Below, piece by piece: positions 9,387-56,133 of a stretch of 64,000 nt of DNA. The notes beneath the pieces were generated by a model. That model ran no database searches. It was not told the DNA's origin and saw nothing but the letters and a program-made list of their open reading frames with translations. The position numbers and the translations under genes were made by a program. The stretch is from Thysanoteuthis rhombus (Eukaryota; Mollusca; Cephalopoda; Oegopsida; Thysanoteuthidae). The stretch's first letter is position 1; every line of letters begins with the position of its first letter. Location of the stretch: contig OY735206.1 of assembly GCA_963457665.1 (NCBI GenBank), forward strand, positions 28,529,377 through 28,593,376, read 5' to 3'.

Positions 9387-9748
9387 CAGATCTGCAAATT
9401 GAAAACCAAGCAACGCATACTTGTAAGAATTATGCTGGGCCTCACACGAAGTGACCACAATACAGCACAGTGCATCCAGAAGAAGATAGGAGACAGGGAC
9501 ACTATAGAATCCATTTAAAATCTAAAATGACAATAGGCCGGCTATGTTGCAAGAATGGTGGAGAACCAATGGACATCACGACTCACGACATGGATCCCCA
9601 GAGATCACATGCGCAACCAAGGCCCGCAGAGTATTAGATGGAGAGACGACTTAGACAAATTCAGAAAGTACTGGCTCCGCAACACCCATGATAGAGAAGT
9701 GAGACGAATCCTGGGGAAGGTTTATCTCCAACGACGGACGTTGAAAGA

Positions 9749-19370: not shown

Positions 19371-19790
19371 TCTTTTATCTAAAATTATCTTTTTTCATCT
19401 AAAATTATCTTAAAAATAGACCTTTCATCCAAAATTATCCCTTAAAAAGATCTTTTGCCTTGAATTATCATGAAAAATAGACTTTTTATCCACAGTTATT
19501 CTTTAAAAATAGATCTTTCATCTAAAATTATCTTAAAAAATAGATTTTTAATATAAAATAAGCCCTTTTATCGAAAATTATCTCTAATAAAAGGTCTTTT
19601 TATCTGGAATTATCTTGAAAAATAGACTTTTACCTAAGATTAATTTTGAAAAATAATCATTTCATATGAATTTACCCGAAAAAATAGATTTTTCATCTAA
19701 AAGTAGCTTTAAAATTAATTTTTTCATCTAGAATTATCCTTAAAAACAGATCTTTCAATTAAAATTATCGTTAAAAGATAGATATTCTAT
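19371..19790. repeat. Degenerate minisatellite, period about 33-35 bp, roughly 12 units
   Basis: Recurring core ATAGATCTTTCATCTAAAAT followed by TATCTTAAAA, with substitutions and small indels in every unit. Spacing of successive TTT(C/T)ATC-AAAATTATC blocks is about 33-35 bp. Confidence 0.85.
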
Positions 19791-28060: not shown

Positions 28061-29171
28061 TTCGTTAGAGTTCTTTCATTTATTGTTTTTTGTAAAGTTC
28101 ATTTGATTGTTTCAATTTGTTTCTTTCCCACACATTCATTTGTAAAAATATTTTTCCGTATAGCCCCAAACTCTGCTTCAAGATATGGGTGAGTCCCTGG
28201 TTCTGTAAAAAAAACTTTCATTGTAACGGACTGATGGGGTTAGTTTGCAAGTCACACAAAATCCTTGGTTGTCATTTCAGGTTTTACTGAATATTCTTTT
28301 GAAATATTACTAATAGTTGATTAATCATCAGGTTGAGTAGGCTTACGCTGAGAGATCCGGAAAAGGTGAATCAAGAGCAGAAACATGGTTTAATTGTGCA
28401 TATGTGAGTATTTTTTCCCGGGCAATTTTGATTAAATTTCAGTATTTCGCATTAAATGAAAGATTCTTAAGCTTAGATTAAAATCAAATAAAGAAGAAAC
28501 AAGAAAATGCATGAAGGAGAAACAACTGTAAATAGTGACTTTATAAAATGTTCATAGTTTCGAATAAATTGTCTGTTGAATCGTTTTGATCCGCTTATCT
28601 ATTTGTATTTTCATTTCATTCTATTTTTACTCGTGTGCAAACATATGTAGATATAGATATAAATAAAGCTGTAAAAAAGTGAGAACTTCTTATTTTTTCC
28701 TATATGTTACTCTATTGAAGGTTGTAGTATATCGTACATCCTAATGAGGGGAATGTATCACCAGAATAAGTCTAGTTACGATCCTCTATTTAACATCTGC
28801 TGTATACAATCGGTTTTGGTTGGTCGTAAATAGCAGGTACTAATGTATTTTCTCCAGATCTGAAATATTGCAAATTCTATTTCCTTCTCTAAACTAAGCT
28901 TCAAACATATGAACATTTTGGTAGTAATGCCTGGAGGACGTTGTACTGCAGCATGTAGTATGTTACCTTTGCATATAATGATAACCAATGTGTAGTATCT
29001 TCTGTCACGCTAAGGGACGCAATTGACGTAGCAGAATAAACTTTCATTCATATTCTAATGACTAAATAGATATGCTGAATTCAAAGAATACAAAAATAGG
29101 AGAAATAATAGAACCACAAACAGAAATACTAAAAACATGTTTGTGGTCAACAGAACTCTATTCATCAAGGT
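28061..29171. other. Unclassified A+T-rich intergenic DNA
   Basis: Nothing recognised. Confidence 0.5.
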
Positions 29172-29765
29172 CACTGCAATACAAATCTCTATTATGCACG
29201 TATTTAAAAATGCAATATGTACATAAGGCTATTCTCTAAGCTCACAGCAATGCAAATCTCTATTAAGTACGTGTATAAAATACAATGTGTATGAAAATCT
29301 GTTCTCAAAGCTTACTGCAAAGCAAATCTCTATTATCCACATCTATGAAATGCAATGTGTATAGAAGGCTATTCTCCAGGTCCACTGCAATGCAAATCTC
29401 ATTTATTCATGGATATAAAATGCAATGTATATAGACGGCTATTCTCACCGCCCACTGCAATGCAAATTTTTACTGTCAACGAATATAAAATGCAATGTGT
29501 TTAGAATACTATACTCTAAGCTTACTACAATCCAAATATCTATTATTTACGTATATAGAAAGCAATGTTTATAGAGACCTATTCTCCAAGCTCATTGCAA
29601 TGCAAATCTTTATAATAAATGTATTTAGAATACAATGTGTATAGAATGTTATTCTCCCAGCTCACTGCAAATCTCTGTTGTCCACGTGTATAAGATATAA
29701 TGTGTATAGAAGGCTATTCTCCAAGCTCACAGTTATGCAAACCTCTATAATCCACGTATATGAAG
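29172..29765. repeat. Satellite-like tandem array, about 70 bp x 8.5
   Basis: The unit runs CACTGCAATGCAAATCTCTA, TTAT-CACGTATATAAAATG, CAATGTGTATAGAAGGCTAT, TCTCCAAGCT. Eight consecutive units keep a length of 65-70 bp while differing by roughly 10-25 percent from one another. TGCAATGCAAATCTCTAT, GCAATGTGTATAGA and TATTCTCCAAGCTCAC are the best conserved parts. Each unit contains ATGCAAAT, the octamer bound by POU proteins. No open frame spans the array. Confidence 0.93.
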
Positions 29766-30417: not shown

Positions 30418-30864
30418 ATCCTAAAAAGAAGAGCATACAACCAATGAATTCTCCCGATAGTCACTTATGGAGTTGAAATATGAAACCTAACCAAGAGACA
30501 GACCTGCAAACTGAAAAGTATGCAATGTACGCATGAGAGAATCATGCTCAACCTTACATGGAGATATCACAAGACAGTACAGTATATAATGAAGAAAGCA
30601 GGTGTCCGTGACATCATAGAAACTACTAAAAAACTGAAATGGCAATGGGCAGGCCATGTTGCAAGAATTAAAGACAATCAATGGACATCACGTCTCACAA
30701 CATGGATCCCCAGGGATCACATGAGAAACTGAGGCCGACAGAACACAAGACGGAGAGATGAACTGGACAGATTCAGGAAATACTGGCTCTGTGACGCCCA
30801 TGATAGAGAATTGAGGTGAATCCTGGGGAAGGTCTATGTCCAACGACAGACATTAAAAGACTAC

Positions 30865-34897: not shown

Positions 34898-35105
34898 GAT
34901 CCTTGATGCAGTGATTTGTCAATACATTTGCAAGTAGCATTGACCAGATGTCAGCGACCAGATGTAATCGATCATCAGGAAGTGACACTTGTTTTAGTCA
35001 GGCGATGGTCAGGCAACCACAGTCCTCAGGCGTCCATGGGCATCAGGCGACCGTGGGGCCTCTGCCGACTATGGGGACTTGGGATAGGGGTCTACACCAA
35101 TAGAG
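34898..35105 (+). repeat. GC-rich repeat with internal short tandems, copy 1 of an inverted pair
   Basis: From GATCCTTGATGCAGTGATT to GGGATAGGGGTCTACACCAA it is homologous to the reverse complement of 37625-37830. Internal elements include GACCAGATGT repeated twice and CAGGCGAC-like units of about 19 bp. It stands out as a GC-rich island within A+T-rich DNA. No frame is conserved between the two copies. Confidence 0.8.
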
Positions 35106-35182
35106 ATGAAGAAGAGTATCGTAAATTTTTAGGCATGACTTTTGTTGGTAGTTTGACGATAATCCCGTTTCAGAACATCAAC

Positions 35183-35204
35183 TATATATATATATATATA
35201 TATT
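35183..35204. repeat. Short (TA)n
   Basis: About 11 TA units. Confidence 0.9.
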
Positions 35205-37346
35205 GATTGTAATTACTGTGTTTCTGAACATAGGTGTCTTGTTGCTCTCACTGATTTCTCTAGCGATGAAATTTGTTTTATGCGACTGGAAACGCAGACC
35301 CTGTCGTTATTCGACTTTAAAAGTGTGTTGTAGGTGAATTGAAACATATTGGATATGCCTTTGTTTTTATTCTTCGATACTTCACCGGTTGGAGCAGCAC
35401 ACATTCAAAGTCAAACACGTGCCAGCGTGCAACCTTGGGCAAGTTGGCATAACCACTAAGAAAAAGATGAATTCACATCCATGCTCATCAATAGCTATAT
35501 TGTGAATGAAACCCTCTCTTATGAAACCTTTAACTATTTTGTTTCTCAAATCTGAAAAATTTCCGGGAAGTCTGGAGGTTTAATCAATTAGAGGCACACG
35601 AAACCAAAAGTATTTTAAATGATACTGACACAACAATAATTTGGATCAGCACTGAGAAGAAAAGAAATCACAAACTCAGTTTTCCAATGACGAATGGAAA
35701 GTGAAGAATCAGTTTAGAATTAAAACTACATTTTAAATAAAAACCCCACTAAAACTTGAAAAAATGATTTTATCAAAACTGATACATTTCCGTGGGGTTT
35801 GGAGAATAGATAGATTGAGAGCATATTTTCTCGGTCGGAATTTGAACTCGGTATGTTACATTCATTTTCTGTGGCTTCAACAACTCTGATATTGGACAGC
35901 AATGATTTCAGAACGACTATTTACTAAACTTTTTTTTTCAAAATAGCATATCCCCTTCCTCATCTGTGAGTAAGTTTAAATAAATGACAAAAAAAAACTT
36001 GCCAAGATATTGCAGATTCAAAATAAACTCACTTTCATTTCACAAAAAAAAATCCTTGAAGAAAAAACAGAGAGAAAAAATAATTTTAGGCAAAATTATT
36101 TCCTTTTATAACAAACGCAGAACCCATAAAGCACCCAACTTGTTTCAGTAAAACTCAACTTTAAAATGTGTGCTGCAGGTATATTGTGATCAGCTACCTC
36201 AGATGTACCGAGGTTTCAATCACTTAATTATTGCACCGCCATGGCCTTGATATGACGAATTACGGCCAAGAAATTGTTTTTTTCAAAGCATTGACCGCCC
36301 CCCACATTTGATTACATTCAAATAGATAATGGAAAAAACACATCTGAAAATGTTGAATTGGAATATATGCATACGTTGGTTTCATAGATCTAACTCAAAT
36401 AGTTTCTTGAGGAAATTGAAAGTAAAAAAGCCGAAGTTTGAACCTAGTCAATCAATTCTGTTTTCCAAGGCACTAAGTACTCGGCTTTGATGGCTATTGT
36501 GTGTGGACTGAGAATTACTGCTCAAAAAGAATATTTTTAGAAAGCATTGCCACCGAACTCCGTGCATGTGAGTAGGTTCAGATGAATAATGAAAAATCAC
36601 TATGAATAATTCTGATTCAAAATACGTATACATGATTTGATCTTATAGATCTAAATTTGATAGTTTTTCTGAAAATCATAGATTGAAAAAACAGAAAAAA
36701 ATTTTTTTTTCGGGAAATTTGTTCTCTGCGAGCACAAATAGAGACTCCATAGAAATTGACTATCTTTTGTTTCAGCAAAATTTGACTTAAAGTTGTGTGA
36801 TATGGTTAATTAGTATTATGGTGATTCTAGATATCCCATAATTTCGGTTTTGTGATGCGTAGTTCTCGATATCTTGGTGTACAAAAACACAAACCCACCA
36901 CATACTGTAGTACTTTATAAAATTCACGCACACACACACATATACACACACATTTATATATATATGTACTCTCACAGAGATTTCAAAACTTATATCAGCA
37001 CATAAAGTCTGTTGTTGGACATAGGCCGCCTTTCCCTTATAAATACAAGGATTATGGCCTTTATCCTGTCAAGCTGGCCCTTGACGATCAGAATGGGCCA
37101 GCATAAGTTTCTTCTATTTTGAACTCATTCTGGCTGGCTGGCTATGTTTGTTTCGCATACAGGCTGCATCGATGGAGTTTGAGGTCTTAAAATTCAAGCA
37201 TCTACTCGTTATTATATCAAGAAAAATAGAATTGATATTTTTAAATCTCCACCCCCGAAAAAAATGAATTTAGATTTTTGAGTGATCAAAAAAAAGGCAA
37301 GATATGTAACTTATCCCTCGATTGCTTGATATTTCCATATCTTCAT
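35205..37346. other. Intergenic DNA with weak tRNA-like B boxes
   Basis: No gene recognised. Minus-strand B-box-like strings occur at about 35840-35855 (GAGTTCAAATTCCGACC) and 36437-36452 (AGGTTCAAACTTCGGC), about 600 bp apart, in a stretch that looks locally duplicated: both lie upstream of similar 'GAAAAA.. AAAAATTT' and 'TTTCAG.AAAA.T.GACTT' sequence. At 37020-37040 TGTTGTTGGACATAGGCCGC is, in reverse complement, close to the AYVQQ-type codons at RTE 3' ends, but it is too short to call. Confidence 0.35.
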
Positions 37347-37424
37347 TTGATCGGTTCCAGCACGGCATTCTGCCAAAAAACGTCGGTCACGTGACGGTTT
37401 CCATTAAGAGAATAACCAGACATG
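37347..37424. repeat. Dispersed short repeat, copy 2 of 3
   Basis: GATCGGTTCCAGCACGGCAT, TCTGCCAAAAAACGTCGGTC, then GAATAACCAGACATG, parallel to the copies at 13681 and 52353. Confidence 0.5.
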
Positions 37425-37624
37425 TTTTTCCTTAATAATTTCTTGCCTAGACACAAGTCAAGTCACCCCACCAGTATATTGAGTGGAAAAATTATGCGCT
37501 TATTGACATTACCTCCAAAACAACATCTGATGTTCTGGAACAAGATTATCGTCTAACTACCAACAAATGTCATGTCTAAAAACATACGATGCTTTTCTTC
37601 ATGACTGTTTTGCTTCTTCGTCCC

Positions 37625-37830
37625 TATCGGTCTAGACCCCTACCCCGACGCCCAATGGTCGGCTGAGGCCCGACGGTCGCCTGATGCCCATGGTCGCCTG
37701 AGGCCCATGGTCGCCTGACCATCGCATGACCAAAACAAGTGCCACATCCTGATGATCGATGACATCTGGTCGATGACATCTGGTCAATGCCGGTGGCAAC
37801 TTTATCGAAGAATCACTGCATCAAGGACAG
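37625..37830 (-). repeat. GC-rich repeat with internal short tandems, copy 2 of an inverted pair
   Basis: The minus strand contains CAGGCGACCATGGGCCT followed by CAGGCGACCATGGGCAT and CAGGCGACCGTCGGGCCT (three near-identical units), plus CATCGACCAGATGT twice. The whole block aligns with 34898-35105, ending in GATGCAGTGATTCTT near 37825. Its tandem units are more regular than in copy 1. Confidence 0.82.
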
Positions 37831-52839: not shown

Positions 52840-52985
52840 CTTGCTACACTTCTCTATCGTGGGCGTCGTGGAGCCAAAACTTTCTGAATTTGTTTAGTTC
52901 ATCTCTCCATCTTGAATTCTATTGGCTTCGGTTGTGCATGTGATCTCTGGGGATCTATGTCGTGAGTCATGATGTCCATCACGAA
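52840..52985 (-). pseudogene. RTE-like retrotransposon 3' fragment, copy 7 (minus strand, short)
   Basis: The minus strand reads ATGGACATCATGACTCACGA then CATAGATCCCCAGAGATCAC, equal to the WTS-LTTWIPRDH region of copies 1 and 6. It continues to WRDELNKFRKFWLHDAHDREV and breaks at about 52840 without the (GAT)n tail. Both ends are truncated. Confidence 0.8.
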
Positions 52986-54600: not shown

Positions 54601-54700
54601 AAATCTATTTCTACTAATTCTAATGCAATGTCATTCCCATTCTTTACTGCGCAGAACGGCAAACTCTTCCAGAAAGAATATTTCCATATGTGTGTTTCGA

Positions 54701-55450
54701 AATCTTTGGTTAGACGCAGCCAAGTTTTGATTAGCTATAAAATGGGTATAAAATATGCTAACCCGACTATGGCTATAGAATGGTTACCCAGGATTATGAA
54801 TTGAAAAGTTCCACACACTCGCTCACTCGATGCTGGAAACGGCACAGAATGAACGTGAATGAATGCGTGGACAATTCATGAAAGAAAAATCGTTAAAGTT
54901 AATTCATTAATTATATTGAGTAATCCACACACCAATTCACACGATGTTAAAAACCCGAGAACATTATTTGTGCGGTGTTTTTGAATCGAGAGAGTGAGTG
55001 AGAGTGCTGAAATTCAAAGTTTACTACAGTGGTAGCCATTTTATAGCTATTCATAATTGGGATACTCAATTTATAGCCATCTAAAATCGTGGTAGCCATT
55101 TTATAGCCACTTATAATGATGGTAGCCACTTTAGAGCCATTCATTATCGGGGTAGCTATTTTAGAGCCATTTGCAATCGTGGTAGCCATTTAATAGACAC
55201 TTAAAATGATGATAGCCATTTTATAGCCACTCAAAATGATGATAGCTATCTTATTGCCATTTATGATCGTGGTAGCCATTTTGTAACCACTGACAATCAT
55301 AGTAGCCATTTTATATCCATTTACAATCGGGGTAGCTATTTCATAGCCATTTTATAGCTATTTATATTCAGATGGCTATTTTATATCTATTTACAATCGT
55401 GGTAGCCATTTTATAGCCAACCAAAATTTTGCCACGTTTAACCAAAGATT
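54701..55450. mobile_element. TIR element of about 750 bp containing a minisatellite
   Basis: The left terminus AATCTTTGGTTAGACGCAGC (54701-54744) and right terminus ending GTTTAACCAAAGATT (55406-55450) are inverted repeats of about 45 bp, both running into CCATTTTATAGC on the inside. Subterminally, CACTCGCTCACTCGATGCTG (54815) and its partner TCGAGAGAGTGAGTGAGAGT (54985) form a second inverted pair. Most of the right half is the ~32-bp minisatellite listed separately. No transposase is encoded and no clear target-site duplication was seen. Confidence 0.75.
55022..55425. repeat. Minisatellite, period about 32 bp, about 12-13 units, inside a TIR element
   Basis: The unit is approximately GTGGTAGCCATTTTATAGCC then ATTTAAAATCGT, with 10-20 percent divergence. 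The last unit merges into the right TIR, which itself contains GGTAGCCATTTTATAGCC, so the array appears to have grown out of the TIR. The minus-strand frame with recurring GYKMATTI peptides is a by-product. Confidence 0.9.
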
Positions 55451-56133
55451 ACCTAAGGCATCCACTTTCATCCTCCTTTCTAACACTCTGCTTTTACAAC
55501 GTAGCTATCGACATTAAGTTTCTTACGCAATTCTCCCTCTAATTTTTAGTTGTCGGTATGTACTAAAATCTTATGTTGAGTAATTTTTCCTCGGTGACAA
55601 GAGAAGCCACCCTTGATAATTTTTATTTGTTTGTTTATTTGCAAATGCTTAAAAAAAAAAAAAACTGGATTCATTCTGTTCACATTAGATTGTACTAATT
55701 TTCTCTTAAAGAGTTACCCAACGGGTCACAGGGTTGTCTAGTTTCAACTAATTCTATAAGTACCACAAACTGGACTAGAGAGCACTGAGAGACCTCATAC
55801 CTCGCCGTACAGAAACGAAACACTGAATGCAAATAAAGAAATATAAAAAGGCAAAGGAGAAAATATACCCGAACATTGGGATACGTCCCTCAAAATTCAA
55901 ATCTAGCCTTTCTATTAACTTGGATTTTAATCCCTTTCCCTGCATACAAATACAGATATTTCTCAATTAGATGCTTACTCCCGGATCTGCCAGGAGATTT
56001 AATCAATTCCTATGTAGCCCATGGCTCATCATTTCACTAAATTTCACTGAAGTCTATGAAGAACTTTTGGAGATATTTTGTGGACAACCAGACGGATAGC
56101 CAGACAGAGAGCTAAACAACCAGACAAATATGA

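Follow-up and report, generated by a model that had tools for sequence, protein, structure and literature searches.

Tandem arrays of a 30-bp terminal inverted repeat segment in a foldback-type element of Thysanoteuthis rhombus

The window analysed here is the whole stretch of 64,000 nucleotides on contig OY735206.1 of the Thysanoteuthis rhombus assembly GCA_963457665.1 (28,529,377 to 28,593,376, forward strand). It contains an element with terminal inverted repeats (TIRs), as the initial annotation made from the sequence alone had claimed. We corrected its span to approximately 54698–55453, on the basis of the inverted repeat and of the end 5'-GGTAAT taken from other copies. The inverted repeat pairs 54701–54748 with 55403–55450 (48 nt, 83% complementary). 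The left TIR (54698–54748, plus strand) has the outer end CGAAATC, versus GGTAATC in relatives, and its inner edge is included in a 30-bp unit. The right TIR (55403–55453, minus strand) ends in GATTACC, which is GGTAATC on the other strand, and overlaps the last unit of a tandem array. The TIR alignment scored 32, compared to a maximum of 16.5 among 2000 pairs of 60-bp window segments with the same spacing. A cruder control with 500 random pairs of 461-bp segments gave a 95% level of 30, a 99% level of 72.5 and a maximum of 79.5, high scores that we assume to be an effect of simple repeats. As this cruder control is less favourable, the recurrence of the ends in other copies is the stronger evidence. 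The TIRs of the window element are real, which is settled by the presence of the same ends at other loci.

The left arm of the element (54730–54800, minus strand) holds about two degenerate 30-bp units that are inverted relative to the main array. It is followed by a first palindrome (54809–54878), a middle segment referred to as M (54873–54926, plus strand) and a second palindrome (54924–55000), with M situated between the two palindromes. Both palindromes are decayed in the window copy (fold z of 0.35 and −0.67, respectively). These three parts, which lie between the left arm and the array, were absent from the initial annotation. The right arm (55029–55427, plus strand) is a tandem array with about 12–13 units as counted by eye. 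TRF found 10.8 regular copies at 55029–55352 with a 73% match, after which there is an irregular stretch and a last unit, and two scripts counted 14 and 11 units. Both the tandem-repeat analysis and the start-to-start spacing of the units gave a period of 30 bp, rather than the 32 bp reported at first, with a higher-order period of 90 bp. The 18-bp unit core GGTAGCCATTTTATAGCC, allowing up to three mismatches, had 12 matches in the window versus 0.03 expected, and all 12 fall inside the element, including one inverted match in the left arm. The unit thus contains the inner TIR sequence, which bears out the link between the unit and the inner edge of the TIRs that the initial annotation had drawn. 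Divergence within the window array (0.281) is near the value between loci (0.307), showing that this array is old. The element contains one ORF of at least 80 amino acids (54947–55189, minus strand, 80 amino acids), which is partly derived from the repeat and has a 10-residue period. As judged by eye, the start of this ORF is closely preceded by an in-frame stop. The frame therefore does not cross the array, and we rejected a coding role for the array.

Copies of the element were collected from the 2.73-Gb assembly, which consists of 514 contigs. A first DNA search gave at least 92 matches (best 40 of 599 candidates) and yielded 38 places including the window, all of which were compared. A second DNA search, with copy L028 as the query, gave at least 121 matches (best 40 of 666 candidates) and yielded 17 further places, 16 of which were used (one on contig 30 was left out), for a comparison set of 54 loci in total. 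The 38 loci of the first search were found via the array, which means that this sample favours long arrays. Read in the orientation of the array, the family has a shared anatomy, with an end segment E (GGTAATCCCTACTTATACGTGGCCAAATTTCGGTTGGCTATAAAATGG) and at least one inverted unit, then a palindrome (P), M and another palindrome, and lastly the array and an inverted E. E was detected at 18 of the 38 places, P at 31 and M at 26; few copies contain the full set, and the arms of the copies are very unequal. At least one of E, P and M was found within 700 bp of the array at 33 of the 38 places; of 38 control pieces taken from the window, two gave such a hit. The five places with none of them are L013, L022, L030, L036 and L040, and three of these (L022, L036 and L040) have a second TIR type at the end of the array. 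This second type is present at 17 of the 38 places and its outer end is also GGTAAT, with flanks that are unrelated in several copies and common in others.

The initial annotation had named minisatellite copies free of TIRs as evidence that would speak against its reading. Some part of the element is carried by 36 of the 38 arrays; the exceptions, L013 and L030, have none detected within 700 bp, and at the L013 locus a second, better preserved copy of the element lies beside the array. No clear free satellite was seen among the 38 arrays (approximately 6 to 58 units by script count). The palindromes are better preserved in some copies than in the window. Both fold strongly in L032 (z of −4.7 for the first and −3.0 for the second), whereas in L028 the second folds (z of −6.8) and the first does not (z of −0.36). 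Together, these copies place the element in the foldback-type structural class, with long TIRs of tandem direct repeats inverted around a middle domain.

The ends of the element are not restricted to copies with an array. The exact end word AATCTTTGGTTARAC, which the initial annotation had put forward as a probe for further copies, proved a poor family marker with 40 matches genome-wide against 25 for the reversed control, and we dropped it in favour of the consensus end. This consensus, GGTAATCYYTRSTTATACG, had 626 genome matches with at most one mismatch, versus 11 for the reversed control. Seven small regions were taken from the consensus-end matches, two of which were picked because they have facing ends less than 100 bp apart. 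Five of the seven (L066–L070) are MITEs of 85–91 bp with the end GGTAATCCTTGCTTATACG or one close to it; the other two contain the end word alone. The five MITEs have the first 19 bp of the element, without the unit or the palindrome, and their flanking octamers agree at 3, 1, 2, 4 and 7 of 8 bases. The end therefore belongs to a wider genome-wide family than the array-bearing copies. As end-bearing copies without an array exist, the array does not invariably accompany this end, and as the MITEs have the first 19 bp without the unit, the copied segment corresponds to the inner portion of the long arm. TIR copies that never contain the minisatellite had also been listed as counter-evidence; the family includes array-bearing copies as well as these five end-sharing MITEs without an array.

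In 18 loci, referred to as the H group, the element lies within the same repeat, H. The 8-base consensus GAAATGGG adjoins the element on both sides of these copies, as derived from 9 left and 16 right flanks. Among the right flanks are those of L014, whose end was misplaced (the consensus is unchanged without it), and of L010, with 5/8 agreement. Left and right consensus sequences agree at 8/8 bases when the length compared is 8, and at no more than 4 bases for lengths of 4–7 and 9–14. At least six of the eight bases match GAAATGGG in 7 of the 9 left flanks and 13 of the 16 right flanks. Seven H copies can be read on both sides, and their left and right octamers agree at 8 (L050), 6, 6, 5, 4, 4 and 4 bases, which means that L050 is the only one of the seven that still has a perfect match. 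Outside H, there are seven two-ended copies, among which L020 has 7/8 agreement in low-complexity bases and the rest, including the window copy, have 0 to 3. We read the H group as one ancestral insertion that was later copied along with H. An insertion into H with an 8-bp duplication would leave an empty-site junction of the form ...GAAATGGGTATTAG... that holds a single GAAATGGG. In the 12 H copies where both flanks were measured, the distance from motif X to motif Y ranges from 321 to 1992 bp.

The number of units differs strongly between loci. Per arm, it ranges from approximately one (L051, by arm length) to approximately 58 (L024, by script count), with script counts being approximate because mismatches are allowed and overlapping matches can be counted. 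The TIRs stay alike over this range, which is the outcome that the initial annotation had expected. Within the H group alone, arms have approximately 1 to 51 units; the right arm contains two or three units in L046–L050, approximately 42 in L019 and approximately 51 in L015, and two copies, L033 and L010 (the latter without M), carry the long array in the left arm. Where M is present (33 loci), 24 loci have the longer arm on the right and 9 on the left (this arm-length comparison covered 53 of the 54 loci; L051, with no unit above the threshold, was left out). In the compact H copies, the two arms are symmetrical in inverted orientation and contain approximately one to three units each, with about one per arm in L051, again by arm length. 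A compact form thus exists in L051 and a few others, although it does not follow from them that this form came first.

In most arrays, units resemble one another more within a locus than across loci. Of 36 arrays with 573 units (two of the 38 arrays were dropped, each with fewer than five usable units), 27 had a lower divergence between units within the locus than between loci, and 9 did not. In L012 it was 0.129 within versus 0.278 between loci, and in L028 0.100 versus 0.223. The closest pair of loci, L028 and L051, is 91.5% identical on the right side, from the last unit outward (376/411), with approximately seven units in L028 versus one in L051. This shows that the unit number has changed since the two shared a recent common right side, with the direction of the change not proved by the pair alone. 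Local expansion of a segment of the TIR arm after insertion is well supported by these observations. The initial proposal that the array was seeded by the TIR is partly supported, in that a segment of the TIR arm expanded locally, but it needs amending, as growth is seen on both sides of the element and among copies of a single insertion. Replication slippage or aborted repair, the routes named in that proposal, are candidate causes.

We propose the following explanation. The basic form of the element would have been nearly symmetrical, with a GGTAAT TIR, one 30-bp unit, a palindrome, a short asymmetric M, a palindrome, one unit and a TIR. Judging from the H copies, it would once have been mobilised by a cut-and-paste transposase generating target duplications of 8 bp, for which a Merlin-type enzyme is the leading candidate. 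Once inserted, the element would gain or lose 30-bp units in place in one of its arms, the right more often than the left, and we infer that this probably occurs via unequal exchange or replication slippage between units. The array is built of TIR sequence, since its unit represents the inner part of the TIR arm. It would then collect mutations, as in the window copy. We consider it probable that this account of an old, non-autonomous foldback element whose arm units change in place after insertion is correct, and extend the same judgement jointly to the window element as a decayed, old, non-autonomous DNA transposon of the foldback type. Whether the transposon or the satellite came first, and whether an array grew before or after insertion, are usually hard to tell. 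An apparently single insertion in H that is present in many copies, with approximately 1 to 51 units in either arm, thus allows post-insertion growth to be studied directly. More tentatively, the paired palindromes beside the arms could make the border between arm and palindrome a hot spot of breakage and repair, at which one arm of an immobile insertion is re-grown repeatedly from the inner segment of the TIR. If so, the H group, with its many copies of the same ancestral insertion, would provide a natural set of expansions that occurred independently, on the left or on the right.

Arm variation could also have arisen mainly from recombination between copies, which would make the loci mosaics instead of products of growth in place. 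The left sides of L028 and L051 are only 71% identical (208/293), in contrast to their right sides, suggesting exchange between copies with a join at or near the array. From this difference it follows that exchange between copies also happens and the gain of units is not the sole process. In addition, M is absent and fewer palindrome halves are kept at several loci (L015, L023 and L035), as exchange between palindromes would give. However, exchange alone does not give units that are specific to their locus, as found in 27 of 36 arrays. Recombination as the main source of the variation is a possibility that we take seriously without favouring it, and both processes may act.

Capture by the element of a 30-bp tandem repeat that already existed and later became part of its ends, as has been proposed for Xenopus miDNA4, is unlikely. 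The five short MITEs place the unit outside the minimal end, and L013 and L030 are arrays without a detected element part nearby, both of which agree with capture. Against it, compact H copies have few units in each arm with inverted symmetry, and nearly all arrays (36/38) are accompanied by some element part. Very unlikely is an arrangement in which M is an invertible cassette, flipped via recombination between the palindromes, while arrays always grow on one side. M does have the minority orientation relative to the array in 8 of the 26 places where it is present. Relative to H, however, M points the same way in all 11 H copies that have it, and what switches side is the array, with the limit that only one of the 11 (L033) has a left-arm array. 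This constancy makes inversion of M unlikely. Finally, chance, or an ordinary minisatellite beside an unrelated inverted repeat, can practically be dismissed even in a window that is rich in tandem repeats, as the best score among 2000 random 60-bp pairs was about half that of the TIRs and this anatomy was found again at dozens of places.

Returning to the proposed foldback element with arm units that change in place, its ends and the length of its duplication fit the Merlin superfamily, of which it is a candidate member. The Mutator superfamily, with duplications of about 8–11 bp, is also compatible with the duplication length seen. Merlin elements are described as having a conserved terminal 5'-GG-3', target duplications of 8 or 9 bp and TIRs of 24–462 bp, and internal tandem repeats are on record for them (PMC8101967). 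The terminal 5'-GG is present here, in GGTAAT ends with unrelated flanks for both TIR types, and the putative duplication is represented by the 8/8 consensus match in the H group, which we read as one ancestral insertion, with mostly none outside H. The internal tandem repeats are a further likeness to what is described for Merlin. The Merlin transposase model PF12762 (DDE_Tnp_IS1595) had 40 matches in the genome, and GGTAATC TIRs were not found around the four of these 40 candidates that were inspected (approximately 1.5 kb on either side, 3.4 kb in all), so no transposase with the same ends was seen among those four.

The closest structural parallels are other elements with repeats in their TIRs. 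Tetris, or TIR-220, of Drosophila virilis is described as a non-autonomous foldback element without coding capacity, whose TIRs contain internal tandem repeats that vary in copy number and share a 37-bp stretch with the outer part of the TIR; it makes 8–10-bp duplications, an origin of the repeats from the TIR has been proposed, and the repeats seed satellites (PMC4079207). Our element resembles Tetris in its foldback form and in the variable tandem repeats of its TIR arms. Unlike Tetris, with a unit of approximately 220 bp and free satellite arrays of kilobase size, it has a 30-bp unit, arrays that are mostly still inside the element, and paired palindromes around its middle segment. Galileo, of the P superfamily, has a repeat of approximately 210 bp in up to three copies within long TIRs, again in variable number (PMC3573991), and its most proximal transposase binding site lies approximately 70 bp from the end, with further sites in the TIR repeats (PMC3688188). 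As in Galileo as described there, tandem repeats of variable number lie within long TIRs, and the unit here lies similarly far from the end; by this analogy, the 30-bp unit may carry a putative transposase site. For Xenopus, Xstir and miDNA4 are reported as MITE-borne tandem repeats of variable number that are either derived from the element or captured (PMC12628747). There the repeats are described as internal to the MITE, whereas the repeat of the present element belongs to the inverted arm. The principle of TIR-derived tandem arrays is thus already published for Tetris and related elements, and the present element is a further case. No account of this element family was found in the literature searched by text, not by sequence, which is weak evidence of absence.

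The window and the flanks of the copies contain further repeats. Eight loci (L016, L017, L025, L027, L031, L039, L042 and L045) have a common flank to the left of the array that looks coding on the opposite strand, as judged by eye. Pfam searches gave one match, below the cut-off, for flank pieces of L016 and L025, and no match for the flanks of L017 and L031 in six frames each. Other arrays of the window were considered as TIR-flanked and rejected: five sites scored at most 14, and 19380–19783 scored 26, which is under the 95% level of random pairs (30). A 70-bp tandem array at 29158–29761, with 8.7 copies and a higher-order period of 210 bp, had no flanking TIR within 400 bp. At 34900–35114 and 37613–37827, a 215-nt inverted repeat (85%) has arms 2.5 kb apart, and its right arm contains a 17-bp tandem repeat (37650–37718). 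The region 34900–37827 is possibly another long-TIR element with a repeat inside its TIR; Pfam found no match in six frames of 35100–37600 at an E-value of 0.01. A dispersed repeat of 133 nt is present at 9569–9701, 30681–30813 and 52847–52979, and the last of these copies forms an inverted pair with each of the others (83% and 80%).
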